Positions 1 through 6,023 of a stretch of DNA of 39,830 nt are shown here, in pieces. The notes beneath the pieces were generated by a model. It was not told where the DNA came from. It was given only the letters and a program-made list of their open reading frames with translations, and did no database searches. The position numbers and the translations under genes are program-made. Within the stretch, counting starts at the first letter, position 1. Each line of letters opens with the position of its first letter. Origin of the DNA: Gammaproteobacteria bacterium (lineage in GTDB: Bacteria > Pseudomonadota > Gammaproteobacteria > Eutrophobiales > Eutrophobiaceae); NCBI GenBank assembly GCA_026710545.1, contig JAPOQU010000052.1, forward strand, positions 1 through 39,830. The letters are read 5' to 3'.

Positions 1-195
1 CAACTCAAGCTCCGGTCCACCGTAAGCTGGCGCAAAAAGGCGGACAGCCAGGTCACCAAGTCTTTCCGGTGTTGACACCGCACGTTTGATAATTTGCCGG
101 ACTTCCTCTTCCATCGAGACACCATGCTGAGCGGCGCGGACTCGTAACCTTGTCAGAGTATCATCATCAAGTTTTCTAACACTCAGACTGGTCAT
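1..195 (-). CDS. FitA-type ribbon-helix-helix antitoxin (partial, C-terminus beyond window)
   Basis: The reverse strand from the ATG at 195 reads MTSLSVRKLDDDTLTRLRVR and continues open to the window edge, giving 65 codons. The pattern of SxxVRKLDD followed by LRVRAAQHGxSMEEEVRQIIKRA is that of FitA/StbC-like (plasmid stability type) antitoxins, which bind DNA through an N-terminal ribbon-helix-helix and neutralise a VapC/FitB PIN-domain toxin with their C-terminus. A good ribosome binding site (AGGAG) lies about 7 bases before the ATG. A perfect 13-base inverted repeat immediately upstream fits autoregulation. The partner toxin would lie beyond position 1 and is not visible, so the toxin-antitoxin pair is inferred. 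Confidence 0.8.
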   Translation of the reverse strand, partial: MTSLSVRKLDDDTLTRLRVRAAQHGVSMEEEVRQIIKRAVSTPERLGDLAVRLFAPAYGGPELEL

Positions 196-224
196 ATTTA
201 CACTCCTGATGCATATCAGATATA

Positions 225-262
225 TTGACGGCAATGCTAGCATACGATGGCATTGCCGTCAA
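225..262. promoter_or_regulatory. Palindromic operator of the antitoxin gene
   Basis: A perfect 13-base inverted repeat occupies 225-237 and 250-262, separated by 12 bases, starting 30 bases upstream of the antitoxin ATG. Paired half-sites with a spacer of about one helical turn are what FitA-like ribbon-helix-helix dimers bind, so this is likely the autoregulatory operator. The palindrome is seen directly; the function is inferred. Confidence 0.65.
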
Positions 263-278
263 AAATCTATCCAATCCT

Positions 279-359
279 GGAGTTCAAGTCTGGAATTACA
301 TAAAAAATACCCATAAACCTTGAAAATCTGTACTTGAACTCCGGGTTTTCAAGGTTTAT
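279..359. repeat. Two interlocking inverted repeats before the DUF4143 gene
   Basis: Arm pair A is 279-289 with 332-342 (11 bases, perfect). Arm pair B is 313-326 with 346-359 (14 bases, perfect). The order A, B, A', B' means the two helices either exclude each other or form a pseudoknot-like fold in RNA. The segment ends 9 bases before the ATPase start at 369, so it could be a transcript leader, a repeat remnant or a binding site. Nothing identifies which. Confidence 0.6.
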
Positions 360-368
360 CATGCCTTC

Positions 369-1598
369 ATGCTGATCGATCGCCCTATTGCCGTTAACCG
401 GGTCATGGCCGCTTATCGCGTTCACCCGGCTATTGCCCTGCTTGGCCCTCGCCAATGCGGCAAGACCACCCTGGCCCGTATCATCGCCGGAAATGAACCG
501 GAGGTCAGTTACTTTGACTTGGAAAAAGCGGTTGACCAGCGCCGTCTGGAGAATCCGGAGCAGACTTTGTCCCCGCTAAAGGGCCTGGTAGTGCTCGATG
601 AAGTGCAAAGACAGCCACAACTGTTCGAGACGCTGCGCGTGTTACTGGATCGGCCCGATTCAGAGACGCGCTTCCTGCTGCTGGGCAGCGCGTCACCTGC
701 GTTAATCAGAAGGACATCGGAAACATTGGCAGGACGTATCGGTCTGGTGGACCTGTCCGGATTCGATATGACCGAGATCCCGTCCGGGCAGTGGCAAACG
801 CTATGGCAGCGAGGCGGATTCCCCAGGAGTTTTCTTGCGCCGGATGATGCTGCGTCTGCGTTGTGGCGCGAAAACTTCGTTCGCACGTTCCTGGAAAGAG
901 ACATCCCACAACTTGGCATTACCATACCGGCAGAATCGCTCCGGCGCTTCTGGACGATGATCGCCCACTACCACGGCCAGGTATGGAACGCTTCGGAGTT
1001 TGCCCGAGCAATGGGGACAAGCGAGCGCACCGCGCGCAATTACCTTGACATCCTGCAAGGCGCTTACATGGTGCGTGTACTTACACCCTGGCATGAAAAC
1101 CTCAAGAAACGCCAGGTCAAATCACCCAAGACCTACGTGCGCGACTGCGGCGTGTTGCATGCCTTGCTGGAGACCGGTTCGTTCTCTGCCTTGTCGGGAC
1201 ACCCGAAAATCGGCGCTTCTTTTGAAGGCTTCGTGATAGAGCAGATTCTCTCCATCCTGGATACCAGGAACGCCAGCTTCTGGGCGACCCATGCCGGGCC
1301 GGAACTGGATTTGTTGGTCAGCATTGCCGGTAAACGCTACGGCGTTGAATGCAAATACACTGAGGCACCTGGCGTTACACGCTCCATGCGAATAGCCATC
1401 CGGGACCTACAACTTGAACATCTATGGGTAGTCTCTCCCGGTAATGAAGAGTATGAACTGGATGAAGCTATATCGGTGTTACCGGTATGGATGATCCCGC
1501 AACGGGTTCAATCACTACTTGCCCGACCTGATGTCTCACGGATGTCTGAGCCTGAGCAAAGTATAGTTGGAGATAGCATGGTAACTTTGGGGGATTGA
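369..1598 (+). CDS. ATP-binding protein, AAA_14/DUF4143 family
   Basis: This 409-residue protein has a Walker A motif GPRQCGKTT (residues 26-34), a Walker B stretch VVLDEVQ (74-80), a GSASP motif (106-110) and the ETLAGRI segment (118-124) that follows it in this family. The C-terminal half matches the DUF4143 region, where ELDLLV followed by GVECKY resembles a PD-(D/E)XK-like fold. Such proteins are widespread stand-alone P-loop ATPases, often near toxin-antitoxin and mobile genes, and their cellular role is not established. The ATG at 369 has no strong ribosome binding site; an inverted-repeat cluster lies directly upstream. Length is normal for the family and no truncation is seen. The gene lies beside an antitoxin gene and an ATPase-nuclease pair, which suggests an accessory segment. 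Confidence 0.85.
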   Translation: MLIDRPIAVNRVMAAYRVHPAIALLGPRQCGKTTLARIIAGNEPEVSYFDLEKAVDQRRLENPEQTLSPLKGLVVLDEVQRQPQLFETLRVLLDRPDSETRFLLLGSASPALIRRTSETLAGRIGLVDLSGFDMTEIPSGQWQTLWQRGGFPRSFLAPDDAASALWRENFVRTFLERDIPQLGITIPAESLRRFWTMIAHYHGQVWNASEFARAMGTSERTARNYLDILQGAYMVRVLTPWHENLKKRQVKSPKTYVRDCGVLHALLETGSFSALSGHPKIGASFEGFVIEQILSILDTRNASFWATHAGPELDLLVSIAGKRYGVECKYTEAPGVTRSMRIAIRDLQLEHLWVVSPGNEEYELDEAISVLPVWMIPQRVQSLLARPDVSRMSEPEQSIVGDSMVTLGD

Positions 1599-1694
1599 CA
1601 ATGTACATGCGTTTGAATCAAATATCCGGGAAATCGCAAAGCAAAAAACACAGAATGCCTTATTTGTATCGTAAAATAGAACGAACTCACTTCA

Positions 1695-1820
1695 ATGCCA
1701 ACCAAAAGTAATAACATAACACCCTCAACCCCGTATTCTGGATTTTTGAAGGTGGACCTGCTGGCGCTGGAACGGAAGCAATACCTCTGTCTCCATTTTT
1801 CCTTTAAATACGGTGAGTAA
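1695..1820 (+). CDS. Small hypothetical ORF (41 aa)
   Basis: Between the DUF4143 gene and the AAA gene (311 bases without a clear gene), an ATG at 1695 opens a 41-codon frame ending in KYGE and TAA at 1820. It has no convincing ribosome binding site and I do not recognise it. The stretch from SGFLKVDLLALERKQ onward looks protein-like and may be the remnant of a lost gene. The rest of this intergenic region shows nothing else I can name. Confidence 0.2.
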   Translation: MPTKSNNITPSTPYSGFLKVDLLALERKQYLCLHFSFKYGE

Positions 1821-1909
1821 GCAGATTGTCAGGTTGCTCAGGACTGTAAACCTGTAATAATCGTAAACACCGTCGGCGCTGACAATATGAAGATCATGAG
1901 GTTGATCAG

Positions 1910-3220
1910 ATGAATGTACGAAAACTGGTAATAGAAGATGTCCGCTGTTTTGCCGGCAGGCATGAGTTTAACATTCGCCCGCTGACCTTCCTGGTTGGTG
2001 AAAACAGCACGGGGAAATCTACCGCACTCGGCTGTTTGGGCGCATTGGACCATGTCATTAACGGAGCGCCTGACAGGTTGAGTTTCAATAAGGAACCTTA
2101 CCAGATGGGAGCATTTGCGGATATTGTCAGAAAATCCAGACCTGCGAAAAAAGGCTTTGGGCTGGGTTTTTCATTCCAGAACGATGCAGGGAACATGGAA
2201 TATATTCTTACCTGTGAAGAAAGGGAGAAAGGTGCAGAGGCTATTGTCTCAGAAGAGAAGTTCATTTTCGAAAACGGGGAAATAATTTGCAAAGACGCAG
2301 TTTTCACTGTCGATCATGCCGAGACGGTGATTTCTTCTACACATAGAATCAGCCATGACTCGGGAGAAACCTCGGGCGCCCGGCAGTTTATCGTGGAGGT
2401 ATTGCCAATATTTTTCATGCAGGATACGCGCCCGTTTGGCCTGCTGGACTCTTTTCTGAGGCAGAAAGATCATGGAATTGAAGTTCAACTCGCAGAATTT
2501 TTAGAACGCTTTCAACCTGTCTGGCAACAGGCAGCGTCTTTTTCTTTCAAGACACAGAGCTTTGCCCCCATACGGTCCAGACCGCAACGGACCTATAACC
2601 CACAGCAGGAAAACTTCACCTCCGAAGGCAGCGACATTCCCGTCCTGCTCAGGGATATGTCCAAGACTGACAGCGCCTCATGGGAGAAATTGAAACGCCG
2701 TTTGTTGGAGTTTGGCAAGACGTCCGGTTTATTCACCGATATACACGTCCGAAAACTCGGAAAATCCATGAACGATCCATTTCAGTTACGAATCAAGACT
2801 ACAGGTCCCGGTGTAAATTTGATTGACGTGGGATACGGAGTCAATCAAATTCTGCCAATCGTGGTAAAAATTCTTCAGACATCCAGGAAAGCAAACTTCT
2901 TGGTCCAACAGCCGGAGGTCCATTTACACCCTAAAGGACAGGCTGCGTTGTCATCCCTGATGGTCGATCTTATCAAACAAAAGAAACATGATTTCGTCGT
3001 TGAGACACACAGCGACTACATGCTTGATCGGGCTCGCATTGAGATCATGAACGGCAGAATTGCGCCGGAAGACGTTTCACTTATCTATCTTGAGGCAGTC
3101 GGCAGTAGTGTCAAAGTTCACAATATCGAATTTGATCAACAAGCGAACCTGCTGGGAATGCCGGGTAGTTACCGGGATTTTTTTCTCAAGGAATCTGACA
3201 AATTACTCGGCTTCGATTAA
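1910..3220 (+). CDS. AAA ATPase, OLD/RecF-like (DUF3696-related)
   Basis: This 436-residue protein starts with the RecF/SMC-like strand pattern and Walker A GENSTGKST (residues 30-38). A family signature DVGYGVNQILPIV (306-318) follows, then the Walker B region QQPEVHLHP (333-341) and the ETHSDY motif (365-370). This layout is that of ABC-type ATPases of the OLD/RecF class that team with a nuclease or TOPRIM partner in defence systems. At Walker B the usual acidic pair (EE or EQ before PE) is QQ, so the magnesium and hydrolysis residues may be altered. The gene is followed after 10 bases by a PIN-domain gene with its own ribosome binding site, so the two probably form one operon. A role in defence or toxicity is inferred from architecture, not proven. 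Confidence 0.8.
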   Translation: MNVRKLVIEDVRCFAGRHEFNIRPLTFLVGENSTGKSTALGCLGALDHVINGAPDRLSFNKEPYQMGAFADIVRKSRPAKKGFGLGFSFQNDAGNMEYILTCEEREKGAEAIVSEEKFIFENGEIICKDAVFTVDHAETVISSTHRISHDSGETSGARQFIVEVLPIFFMQDTRPFGLLDSFLRQKDHGIEVQLAEFLERFQPVWQQAASFSFKTQSFAPIRSRPQRTYNPQQENFTSEGSDIPVLLRDMSKTDSASWEKLKRRLLEFGKTSGLFTDIHVRKLGKSMNDPFQLRIKTTGPGVNLIDVGYGVNQILPIVVKILQTSRKANFLVQQPEVHLHPKGQAALSSLMVDLIKQKKHDFVVETHSDYMLDRARIEIMNGRIAPEDVSLIYLEAVGSSVKVHNIEFDQQANLLGMPGSYRDFFLKESDKLLGFD

Positions 3221-3230
3221 GGATGAACCC

Positions 3231-3647
3231 ATGTGCCTGATACTGGATACGAACTTGTATAATCTTTTTCTCCAACCTGATAATAGCGACATGAAACCAG
3301 TAAAGGACTGGGTTGACAAGGACGGTAAGATTGCCTGGTCGCCAACAGGGAAGATGAAGCGCGAATTAGACAGGTCGCCGAGAATGAGAACAAGGTTTGA
3401 AGAATATCGCAGGGATGGAAAGCTCAAACTCTATCCCCCCGGAGACGTTGAATGGGAAAGAAAACGGTTACCTAAACTGCATTCCGATGACCCGGACATC
3501 ATCGCCCTTGCCAGGATTACGGGAGTCAACTTGCTGGTATCCGGCGATAAAGACCTCCATACTGATTTTAAACAACTACACGGACAGAGGAAAATTTACC
3601 AGACCAGAAACCATATCGATCTACTCAGGAACAATCGCTGCCCATAG
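3231..3647 (+). CDS. PIN-domain nuclease partner of the AAA ATPase
   Basis: This is a 138-residue protein read from the ATG at 3231, chosen because AAGGA sits 7 bases upstream and the preceding stop ends at 3220. It begins with the PIN strand MCLILDTN (D6), then KRELD (E45), SDDPDIIALA (D86/D87) and SGDKDL (D106, D108), giving the full set of acidic residues expected for a metal-dependent PIN ribonuclease. It has no antitoxin partner of the usual small ribbon-helix-helix kind; its neighbour is instead a large RecF-like ATPase. The ATPase may gate the nuclease. Substrate and trigger cannot be read from the sequence. Confidence 0.75.
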   Translation: MCLILDTNLYNLFLQPDNSDMKPVKDWVDKDGKIAWSPTGKMKRELDRSPRMRTRFEEYRRDGKLKLYPPGDVEWERKRLPKLHSDDPDIIALARITGVNLLVSGDKDLHTDFKQLHGQRKIYQTRNHIDLLRNNRCP

Positions 3648-3698
3648 TTCATCTTCGGGGGCGGCCTGCTGCTGTTGGGCGCGGGGTAATGGCTAGTA

Positions 3699-3722
3699 GG
3701 GGACAGATTAAAATCTGTCCCC
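3699..3722. repeat. GGGGACAG palindromic repeat, copy 1
   Basis: Inverted arms of 11 bases (3699-3709 and 3712-3722) start with GGGGACAGATT and are perfect. Four relatives of the same family lie at 31101, 33430, 33475 and 39166. The design resembles REP elements mobilised by Y1 (RAYT) transposases, but no such transposase is in the window. Confidence 0.75.
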
Positions 3723-3740
3723 ATTCAGACTTTTAGATAC

Positions 3741-3755
3741 GTGGGGCGCCCCCAC
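3741..3755 (-). terminator. Possible terminator hairpin downstream of the TonB receptor gene
   Basis: A short GC-rich stem (3741-3746 with 3750-3755, 3-base loop) lies 13 bases beyond the receptor stop. There is no strong T-run after it on the minus strand, so the terminator call is weak. Confidence 0.3.
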
Positions 3756-3767
3756 AGGCTCCGGGTT

Positions 3768-6023
3768 TCAAAACGTAAACGTCACCTCGCCCCCGATCAC
3801 CCGTCCCTTGGCCAGGGGTGCATAAGCGCCGCCCAGGGGGATGGGTCCCAGCCTTGACGGTAGCTGGGCATCGCCGCCGTGCTTGACTTCATCCAGCAGG
3901 TTCTTGCCATAGACTGAAAACGTCCAATGGCCGCCTTCCGTGTGGAAGTCCAGGCCGGCGTCCAGGATCTTCTGCGACAGGATATAGCCCAGGTTGTTAT
4001 CGGTGAAGCTCGATTCATCGCGGTAGGAGTACCTGATCCGTGTGTCCAGATGACCCAAATCACCGACCTGGAGGTGGTGCCTGAGGCCCAGGCTCCAGGT
4101 CCATTCCGCGGCGCGGGGCAGGTCCAGGTCCTTGTCCCGCCCGTCGATCATGCCGTCACTGTTGAGATCGAATGTCACGTCCTTGTAATCGGCATCAAGC
4201 CAGCCGGCCGAACCGGTAGCCTGGAGGTCATCCGTCAGGTTGACAGCGCCGTCCAGTTCAATGCCGAGTATTTCAGCGTCCGCGGTATTCTTGATGACCT
4301 GTACTACGCCGGAGAAGGGATCCGCCAGGTTGATCTCCCGCTGCATATCTTCGATATCATTAAAAAACAGCGCGCCGCTCAGGTAGCCTTGTGCAAAACT
4401 GGCCTTGAAGCCGATTTCGTAGTTGTCCACGGTCTCCTCGCCGAACGGGCCCGGCCCGAGGTTGACGGTATCGATGGCAGTATTACGCAGGTTGTAGCCG
4501 CCGGAACGGAAGCCCCGGGTCCAGTGCGCGTAGATGCGTGCGGCATCGGATATGTGGTAAGTCATGCCCACCTTGGGAGACCAGCTATCCCACTCTTCAG
4601 CGTCGGTAAAATCGAACGGACAGGTGCCGTCCAGCACGTTGCAAGGCGAGTTCACGTTCCTGACCAGGGTGGCGATCCCGGCCTCCTTCTCCTCGGTTGT
4701 GTAGCGCAATCCGGCGCTCAGTGTGATTGCATCGTTGAGATCATAATCCACGGCCGCAAACACCCCGATTGTCTCCACTTGGTATTCGCCGCCGCCATCC
4801 TGGAGCAGCGCCGGAGAGCCGTCCGGCGTCAGCAGGCCCAGCAGGTTGCGCCGTTCGTGGTAGTTGATATCGTTGTTGAAATAATACACTCCCGTGGTCA
4901 GGTTGAAACGTTCGGCGAATACGCCGTGATAGCGCAGTTCGTTGCTTACCTGTTCTATGTCCTGGGACGCGCCACCGTGGAACAGGCTGACAGGTTGGGC
5001 ATCGATATCGCTCAGCAATTCCGATTCGTAGCTTCGATATCCGAAGATATTGGTAACCACACCGTTTTCGCCAACCTCCAGATTCAATTCCGCTGCCACA
5101 AAATGTGTTTCCGAATCCTGGAAACCTTCCCCGTCTATGGAGAAATCATGGCTGTCGCGGTCAAAGTTGGCCGGCTTCCCGTCGATCCCGAGACCGTTGG
5201 TATGCGTCTGCGAGGCGGAACCGTCGCCTTCGGTTTCGCTGTACTGGTAGCGCAGCACCAGTTCCATCCGTGCAGTGGGTCTCCAGACCACGACAGGACG
5301 GATCATCACCTGTTCCAGGGCGCCGAAGTCATCGCCGGTAAGTTTGTTCTCGAACCAGCCGTCGTCATCGTTGTAGTAAGCCGTAATACCAACGCTGAGG
5401 CTGTCACCGACCGGTCCCCCTGCACTGCCCATCAGGTACTTGTTCAACCCGCCGTCGCCGCCGCCGTCCAGCGCGGTGCGCACGCGGGCCTCGAACTCGT
5501 CTCCGGGTTTCCTGGTATTCACCAGGATGGCGCCGCCGGTCACGTTACGCCCGAACAGGATGCCCTGGGGACCGCGCAGCACCTCGATGCTTTCCAGGTT
5601 AAAGGTATCGAACGCGGCGCCGGTGTTCGATCCGATATATACGCCATCCACAAAAATACCCACGGTGGGGTCGATGGAGGGAATGGAACTGTTTATCCCC
5701 AGTCCGCGTATGGAAAAGTTGCTAATTCCCCTGGCGGTACCGACTTCATCCAGGGCCACGTTGGGCATGCTCACCGCCAGGTCGGTCAGGCCGCGCAGTT
5801 TGCGCGCCTCGATCTGGTCCGCCCCCAGCGCAGTGATTGAAAGCGGCGCGTCCAATACCGTTTCCTCGCGTTTGCGCGCCGTGACCACCACCTCTTCCGG
5901 CAGGGGGACCATATCGCTGTGTTGCCGGGAACTCTGTGCGCCGGCAGATCCCGGAGCGAGTGCGCCGCTCATGACCATCAGGGCGGCGAGTAGGGGTGAG
6001 AAATAGCTGTTGTGATTGATCAT
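3768..6023 (-). CDS. TonB-dependent outer membrane receptor
   Basis: This is a 751-residue outer membrane barrel protein. An N-terminal signal peptide ends near GSAGAQ (residue 30), followed by a TonB-box-like EEVVVTARKRE and a plug domain with GLGINSS, FVDGVYIG and EVLRGPQG motifs. The long beta-barrel ends in a terminal phenylalanine (EVTFTF), typical of outer membrane insertion. The receptor imports a ligand such as a siderophore or other metal complex using TonB energy. The sequence class is the large TBDR group common in marine gammaproteobacteria and sphingomonads. The ligand cannot be told from sequence; no transporter, TonB or regulator is adjacent. It is a stand-alone gene between an accessory segment and yoaA. 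Confidence 0.9.
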   Translation of the reverse strand: MINHNSYFSPLLAALMVMSGALAPGSAGAQSSRQHSDMVPLPEEVVVTARKREETVLDAPLSITALGADQIEARKLRGLTDLAVSMPNVALDEVGTARGISNFSIRGLGINSSIPSIDPTVGIFVDGVYIGSNTGAAFDTFNLESIEVLRGPQGILFGRNVTGGAILVNTRKPGDEFEARVRTALDGGGDGGLNKYLMGSAGGPVGDSLSVGITAYYNDDDGWFENKLTGDDFGALEQVMIRPVVVWRPTARMELVLRYQYSETEGDGSASQTHTNGLGIDGKPANFDRDSHDFSIDGEGFQDSETHFVAAELNLEVGENGVVTNIFGYRSYESELLSDIDAQPVSLFHGGASQDIEQVSNELRYHGVFAERFNLTTGVYYFNNDINYHERRNLLGLLTPDGSPALLQDGGGEYQVETIGVFAAVDYDLNDAITLSAGLRYTTEEKEAGIATLVRNVNSPCNVLDGTCPFDFTDAEEWDSWSPKVGMTYHISDAARIYAHWTRGFRSGGYNLRNTAIDTVNLGPGPFGEETVDNYEIGFKASFAQGYLSGALFFNDIEDMQREINLADPFSGVVQVIKNTADAEILGIELDGAVNLTDDLQATGSAGWLDADYKDVTFDLNSDGMIDGRDKDLDLPRAAEWTWSLGLRHHLQVGDLGHLDTRIRYSYRDESSFTDNNLGYILSQKILDAGLDFHTEGGHWTFSVYGKNLLDEVKHGGDAQLPSRLGPIPLGGAYAPLAKGRVIGGEVTFTF

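Follow-up and report, generated by a model that had tools for sequence, protein, structure and literature searches.

Two adjacent genes in a 39,830-nucleotide stretch of a gammaproteobacterial genome (Eutrophobiaceae; assembly GCA_026710545.1, contig JAPOQU010000052.1; hereafter the window) are an obligate pair, in which an OLD-class ABC ATPase gene is followed by a gene for a PIN-domain protein. We consider it fairly probable that the pair is a defence module in which the ATPase gates a PIN ribonuclease, probably causing abortive infection by a lock-and-release mechanism. The defence reading is based on the obligate adjacency, the agreement of the two trees, the PIN fold with its acids, the defence contexts of some loci, and the precedent for the ATPase fold. 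Against it stand the metabolic surroundings of most loci, the lack of phage or plasmid carriers at the sensitivity used, a possible DNA flap role of PIN proteins, and the doubtful activity of the ATPase.

Conservation of the two-gene unit

Both open reading frames of the originally predicted unit are present, and the ORF listing of the window places them 10 bp apart (Table 1). Promoter and terminator scans returned chance-level results only.

Table 1. Features of the window discussed in the text
Feature	Position	Strand	Remarks
FitA-like ribbon-helix-helix antitoxin	1..243	-	cognate FitB toxin on overlapping contig C38
Segment missing at the same site in same-genus G014	356..3761	.	genome comparison
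DUF4143/AAA_14 ATPase (PADLOC candidate PDC-S01)	369..1598	+	same insertion as the pair
ATPase ORF	1910..3220	+	OLD/SMC-head-type ABC ATPase, 436 aa
Walker A GENSTGKS	1997..2020	+	ATPase residues 30-37; conserved in relatives
Signature-like motif DVGYGVNQ	2825..2848	+	ATPase residues 306-313
Walker B region QQPE	2906..2917	+	ATPase residues 333-336; both usual acids are Gln
H-loop ETHSD	3002..3016	+	ATPase residues 365-369
PIN ORF	3231..3647	+	138 aa, ATG start, TAG stop; predicted ribonuclease effector
PIN D6	3246..3248	+	alignment of relatives
PIN E45	3363..3365	+	alignment of relatives
PIN D87	3489..3491	+	alignment of relatives
PIN D106	3546..3548	+	alignment of relatives
PIN D112	3564..3566	+	invariant; alignment of relatives

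With the window PIN as a single query, searches of genome contigs, plasmids, and phages turned up no relatives, since one sequence cannot span so divergent a family. The search that succeeded was guided by a profile: with a five-row PIN alignment (A5) as the query, it covered 84,980 species genomes and returned 124 PIN relatives, 80 loci of which were retrieved. The same ATPase gene lies directly upstream on the same strand in 77 of the 77 evaluable loci, the other three being cut by contig ends upstream of the PIN gene. These pairs are spread over more than a dozen phyla, so that the expected recurrence in distant genomes was confirmed. With few exceptions, the two genes are separated by -1 to about +38 bp; the gap of 248 bp in L068 reflects a degenerate PIN start. 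Beyond the window, whole-genome searches gave the same picture, with the ATPase directly upstream of all eight clear PIN relatives (G016, G266, G488, G492, G755, G654, and two in G748), partly the same records as in the 80-locus set. The weak class-search matches L028-L035 were judged unrelated by E-value, L028 and L034 also by their genes.

The ATPase and PIN trees agree, with a Mantel distance correlation of r 0.895, a value reached by none of 2000 permutations (none exceeded 0.114). In the reverse direction, eight family ATPases were found in 369 genomes of the class; seven flank a PIN gene, one of these being a second ATPase copy at a shared PIN, and the eighth (G661) stands alone. Taken together with the PIN loci, the PIN was never seen without the ATPase, and the ATPase can lose the PIN. 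The PIN gene of L055 is interrupted by a stop next to a whole ATPase gene. A constant third gene was sought across the loci beside the pair, and none was found. In L147 (G492:C156), two ATPase copies flank one PIN, the second copy having an altered Walker B, QQSETHLYP.

Properties of the two proteins

Profile matches and fold comparison bore out the assignment of the first protein to the RecF/OLD-like ABC ATPases. It matches Pfam AAA_15 (1.9e-18) and AAA_21 (4.7e-13) as well as the ATPase region of Thermus OLD. Its best PADLOC profile is NsnB of Menshen (1.7e-43 over residues 4-433), with further matches to PDC-M55A (3e-38) and AriA (3.2e-19); the HEC-03B profile (7.3e-23, best stretch residues 270-418 only) ranks below NsnB and PDC-M55A. 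The AlphaFold model (AF2, pLDDT 89.4) is closest to SMC/Rad50/PtuA-type ABC heads with Z about 20, and the solved PtuA of retron Ec78/Eco7 and Septu among these fold matches is a precedent for such a fold in nuclease complexes. The fold matches listed did not include solved AriA, an absence that carries no weight. Neither the domain search nor the model revealed a Toprim or other nuclease domain, the protein ending at residue 436. Walker A and the ETHSDY motif (residues 365-370) were both found as originally predicted and are conserved in the relatives, as are D306, G308, G310, and Q313 of the signature-like motif.

The original prediction had not mentioned a Gln-Gln replacement at Walker B. 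The stretch LVQQPEVHLHP aligns with IIEEPE of Thermus OLD, placing QQPE over E276-E277, of which E276 is the Walker B acid of that protein (PMC7049728). QQPE occurs in 74 of 75 family ATPases (73 by pattern and L102 by eye), and the remaining one has HQPE; related ATPases of the window's genome read EQPE or EEPE. Judging from these motifs, the family ATPase most likely binds ATP, and standard ATP turnover is doubtful and may not occur. Given Gln at both Walker B acid positions in nearly every member, the switch is more likely to work by ATP binding and release than by ordinary turnover. We propose the ATPase as the sensor or regulator half of the pair.

The PIN protein was modelled with high confidence (AF2, pLDDT 94.9) as a PIN fold whose nearest structures are RNases, namely VapC toxins (best match Z 10.5, 2.8 Å over 118 residues), SMG6, Nob1, Utp24, and HARP RNase P. 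The fold and the nearly invariant acids support a PIN partner with a catalytic set. Among 81 relatives, D6 and E45 are each kept in 80, D87 in 81, and D106 in 79; the predicted set of D6, E45, D86/D87, and D106 is thus near-invariant, whereas the additionally proposed D108 is Asp in only 14 of the 81. D112, which the prediction had not listed, is invariant in this alignment. No model in Pfam, NCBIfam, PADLOC, or PHROGs matches the PIN (one chance-level PHROG, 0.24), so the suggested PADLOC profile search succeeded for the ATPase, with NsnB on top, and failed for the PIN. Searching PDB sequences with the PIN profile yielded a chance ferritin match only. We also observed an almost invariant cysteine at each terminus, C2 (3234-3236) and C137 (3639-3641). 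C2 is present in 81 of 83 PINs and C137 in all complete members. Full invariance of C2 was rejected since L072 and L081 lack it and the count is partly a product of choosing starts that read MC.

PIN proteins can also act as DNA flap nucleases. The pair could be imagined as a DNA-acting complex akin to Rad50-Mre11 or Septu, whose PIN would cut invading DNA directly. The ATPase fold, nearest to SMC/Rad50/PtuA heads, and the association with DNA restriction operons would suit such a complex. We nevertheless regard it as improbable, as the nearest PIN matches are the RNases listed above and the 138-aa PIN has no visible DNA-binding extension.

A toxin-antitoxin-like addiction or stress module, with the ATPase as a large antitoxin holding the PIN for self-maintenance or general stress rather than against phages, appears rather unlikely to us, although several observations fit it. 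The PIN fold is nearest to the VapC/FitB toxins, the PIN is never found without the ATPase while the ATPase occurs once without the PIN, the interrupted gene of L055 is a PIN gene beside a whole ATPase, the ATPase may be a non-hydrolysing binder, and most copies lie outside defence neighbourhoods. The embedding of pairs inside restriction, DISARM, and E1-E2 operons argues against it, as does the gene order, the PIN being preceded by a 436-aa ATPase unlike the small VapB/FitA antitoxins.

Genomic neighbourhoods and mobility

The pair lies in an accessory island, as originally suggested. The last 141 bases of contig C38 are identical to the first 141 of the window, and joining the two reveals a 7.2-kb insertion with an XRE control gene, a PglZ fragment, PtuB, PtuA, FitB, FitA, the DUF4143/PDC-S01 gene, and the ATPase-PIN pair. 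Profile matches on C38 identified the PglZ N-terminal fragment (118 aa, 1.9e-41), PtuB (1.7e-81), and PtuA (7.4e-150). A TonB-receptor gene (window 3768-6023) borders the insertion on one side; on the other, on C38, lies a convergent transporter gene, which we take from its sequence to be of the short-chain-fatty-acid type. In the same-genus genome G013 the site is empty, the two border genes meeting within about 20 bp; in G014 fitAB is present and window positions 356-3761 are missing; and in G016 the site holds a DUF4143-type gene. As an accessory insertion holding PtuAB, FitAB, and a PglZ remnant, the island is a defence island.

Other features of this genome (G000) deserve mention. The complete Septu PtuAB adjoins a BREX remnant, the 118-aa N-terminal part of PglZ (L137, G000:C38:5804-9377). 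A 43-bp sequence right after the PIN stop (3647-3689) resembles the 3' end of the transporter gene and is possibly a trace of the insertion's origin. Two more OLD/DUF3696-like ATPase genes (L003, L004) are each overlapped by a gene for a protein of 310-326 aa without a Pfam match, in a layout resembling NsnB/NsnC or PDC-M55A/B.

In other genomes, about 11 of the 80 loci show operonic contact with a restriction, DISARM, E1-E2, or GmrSD gene, a raw count with no background rate, and in most loci the pair sits among ordinary metabolic genes. The expected location in defence islands therefore holds for these loci and for the window island and fails for the majority. The pair is found in type III restriction systems between Mod and Res (L046), after Mod (L038), and before ResIII (L044); in type I systems after the specificity subunit (L079) and before HsdM (L096); and in DISARM between DrmD and DrmMI (L078 and L098, the second of the two genes in L098 being a long Eco57I/MmeI-type methylase gene) and before DrmA (L065). 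It follows ThiF/E1-E2 genes in L066 and L102, overlaps a GmrSD_N-AlbA gene in L009 (the same locus as L047), lies beside a DUF499 gene in L027, and is preceded by a GmrSD_N/DUF262 gene in G016. In three Latescibacteria loci (L062, L068, L088), the ATPase gene shares its first 4 bases with the end of a sulfatase-like gene. Alignment scans for the PIN found none in viral contigs, and none was found on phage or plasmid records at the sensitivity used.

The pair is mobile between phyla. The window PIN is closest to Binatota and Desulfurellaceae copies (62-64% identical, in a six-member tree group with support of 98) and only 40-42% identical to the copy of its own genus. Very many carriers have record names of what we presume to be sponge-symbiont lineages (Poribacteria, Entotheonella, Synechococcus spongiarum, AqS3, Caldilineaceae, Latescibacteria), and the pair may pass between members of sponge communities; this tally covers L037-L116, with hosts inferred from record names without control for collection bias. 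A host housekeeping pair, with a role in RNA processing or repair and no part in conflict, would agree with the many loci amid metabolic genes and with the grouping of the Poribacteria copies in one part of the tree, itself weakly supported (35). We hold this explanation to be highly improbable because the pair is patchy and rare (2 of 53 family genomes and 2 of 398 phylum genomes), the window copy clusters with Binatota and Desulfurellaceae copies instead of its own genus, and G013 and G014 lack the insertion.

Comparison with known systems and a possible mechanism

ATPase-PIN dyads in general are already known, contradicting the original view that no such arrangement had been established: HEC-03 is one, and a 2026 survey described OLD-ABC ATPases with PIN endoRNases as partners in BREX and BREX-related (BR) loci (PMC12839542). 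In those dyads, the PIN replaces Toprim and was proposed to be a backup suicidal effector; the survey notes their occurrence in other restriction-like systems and cites earlier reports (PMC12839542). The window pair is alike in its nuclease-free OLD-class ABC ATPase and adjacent PIN gene, a likeness drawn from the published description and not from PIN sequences. The surveyed dyads come from BREX/BR loci, whereas the window pair belongs to a Septu/FitAB island where the PglZ remnant is the only trace of BREX, and relatives of the pair occur in DISARM and in type I and type III systems. The BREX location, which the window pair lacks, is a trait of the surveyed set and no stated requirement of the class.

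HEC-03, a PADLOC candidate (HEC-03A and HEC-03B), likewise consists of a DUF3696-type ABC ATPase and an adjacent small MC-starting protein, PIN-like by motif only and not folded in our comparison. The window's genome contains a copy of it (L002; HEC-03B 3.7e-125, HEC-03A 4.9e-35). The two ATPases are 22% identical, and HEC-03B keeps EQPE at Walker B where the window family has QQPE; a further difference in this genome is the RNA ligase gene that comes after HEC-03B. Membership in HEC-03 was rejected on the PIN: the HEC-03A profile does not match the window PIN and matches one of 63 PIN relatives (E 0.007), and a profile comparison of the two was not significant (prob 6). The window family is set apart from HEC-03 by its PIN. 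At L138:13100-15764 (G000:C99) of the same genome, a HEC-03-type ATPase and PIN-like gene precede the gene for an RNA ligase (PF09414), and G098 has a similar ATPase with an RNA-ligase-like gene (L146); the former locus suggests RNA cutting and sealing together.

The family is set apart from Menshen, PARIS, Gabija, and Septu by its partner. Menshen (NsnABC) shares the NsnB-like ATPase, the best ATPase match, whereas the Menshen and PDC-M55 partners are a DUF262 protein and a protein of about 305-315 aa. Membership in Menshen was rejected, as NsnC is a different 305-aa protein without a match anywhere in G000, and no NsnA (DUF262) gene occurs among the window ORFs near the pair; PDC-M55 was likewise rejected, its partner not being a PIN. 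PARIS (AriA/AriB) also has split OLD-class ATPase and nuclease genes, with the ATPase as sensor and a separate tRNA-cutting nuclease (PMC12839542), but AriB is a Toprim tRNA nuclease. The ATPase head is nearest to PtuA of Septu and retron type I-A PtuAB (Z about 20), yet PtuB is an HNH nuclease, and the authentic PtuAB is a separate pair on C38. Gabija combines an ATPase-Toprim fusion with a UvrD-like helicase, unlike the 436-aa ATPase without Toprim and the PIN found here. VapBC/FitAB share the PIN fold and acids and have a small antitoxin upstream, in contrast to the ABC ATPase in 77 of 77 loci of the family. Validated defence effectors also include PIN proteins that lack a VapB antitoxin (DefensePredictor DS-3 and DS-5, PMC13092281).

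The best-supported account is the ATPase-gated ribonuclease. The OLD-class ATPase would dimerise on ATP and bind the PIN protein, holding it idle. An infection signal, which might be a phage protein, DNA ends, or the failure of a co-resident restriction system, would change the state of the ATPase and thereby free or activate the PIN. The PIN would then cut RNA, with tRNA or some other RNA of translation as the most likely target, and stop the growth of the infected cell. The module would thus work like PARIS with another nuclease fold. A more specific version, which we offer tentatively and think somewhat unlikely, sees the Gln-Gln Walker B ATPase as a non-hydrolysing ABC clamp that serves as a one-shot, ATP-bound lock on the PIN ribonuclease. 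The pairs would form a distinct, widespread, unmodelled defence family and act in DISARM, type I/III restriction, and ubiquitin-like E1-E2 operons as a fail-safe, going off once the main system has been overcome.

The pair is probably an uncatalogued version of a known switch that cuts RNA when a phage attacks. If this is true, a mobile two-gene RNA-cutting immune module would be added to the OLD-ATPase family, one present in more than a dozen phyla yet absent from the curated libraries searched (Pfam, NCBIfam, PHROGs, PADLOC). The fixed Gln-Gln Walker B would offer a natural test of whether OLD-family ATPases work by ATP binding or hydrolysis, and the insertion of the pair inside DISARM and restriction operons would make the idea of a backup suicidal effector directly testable.
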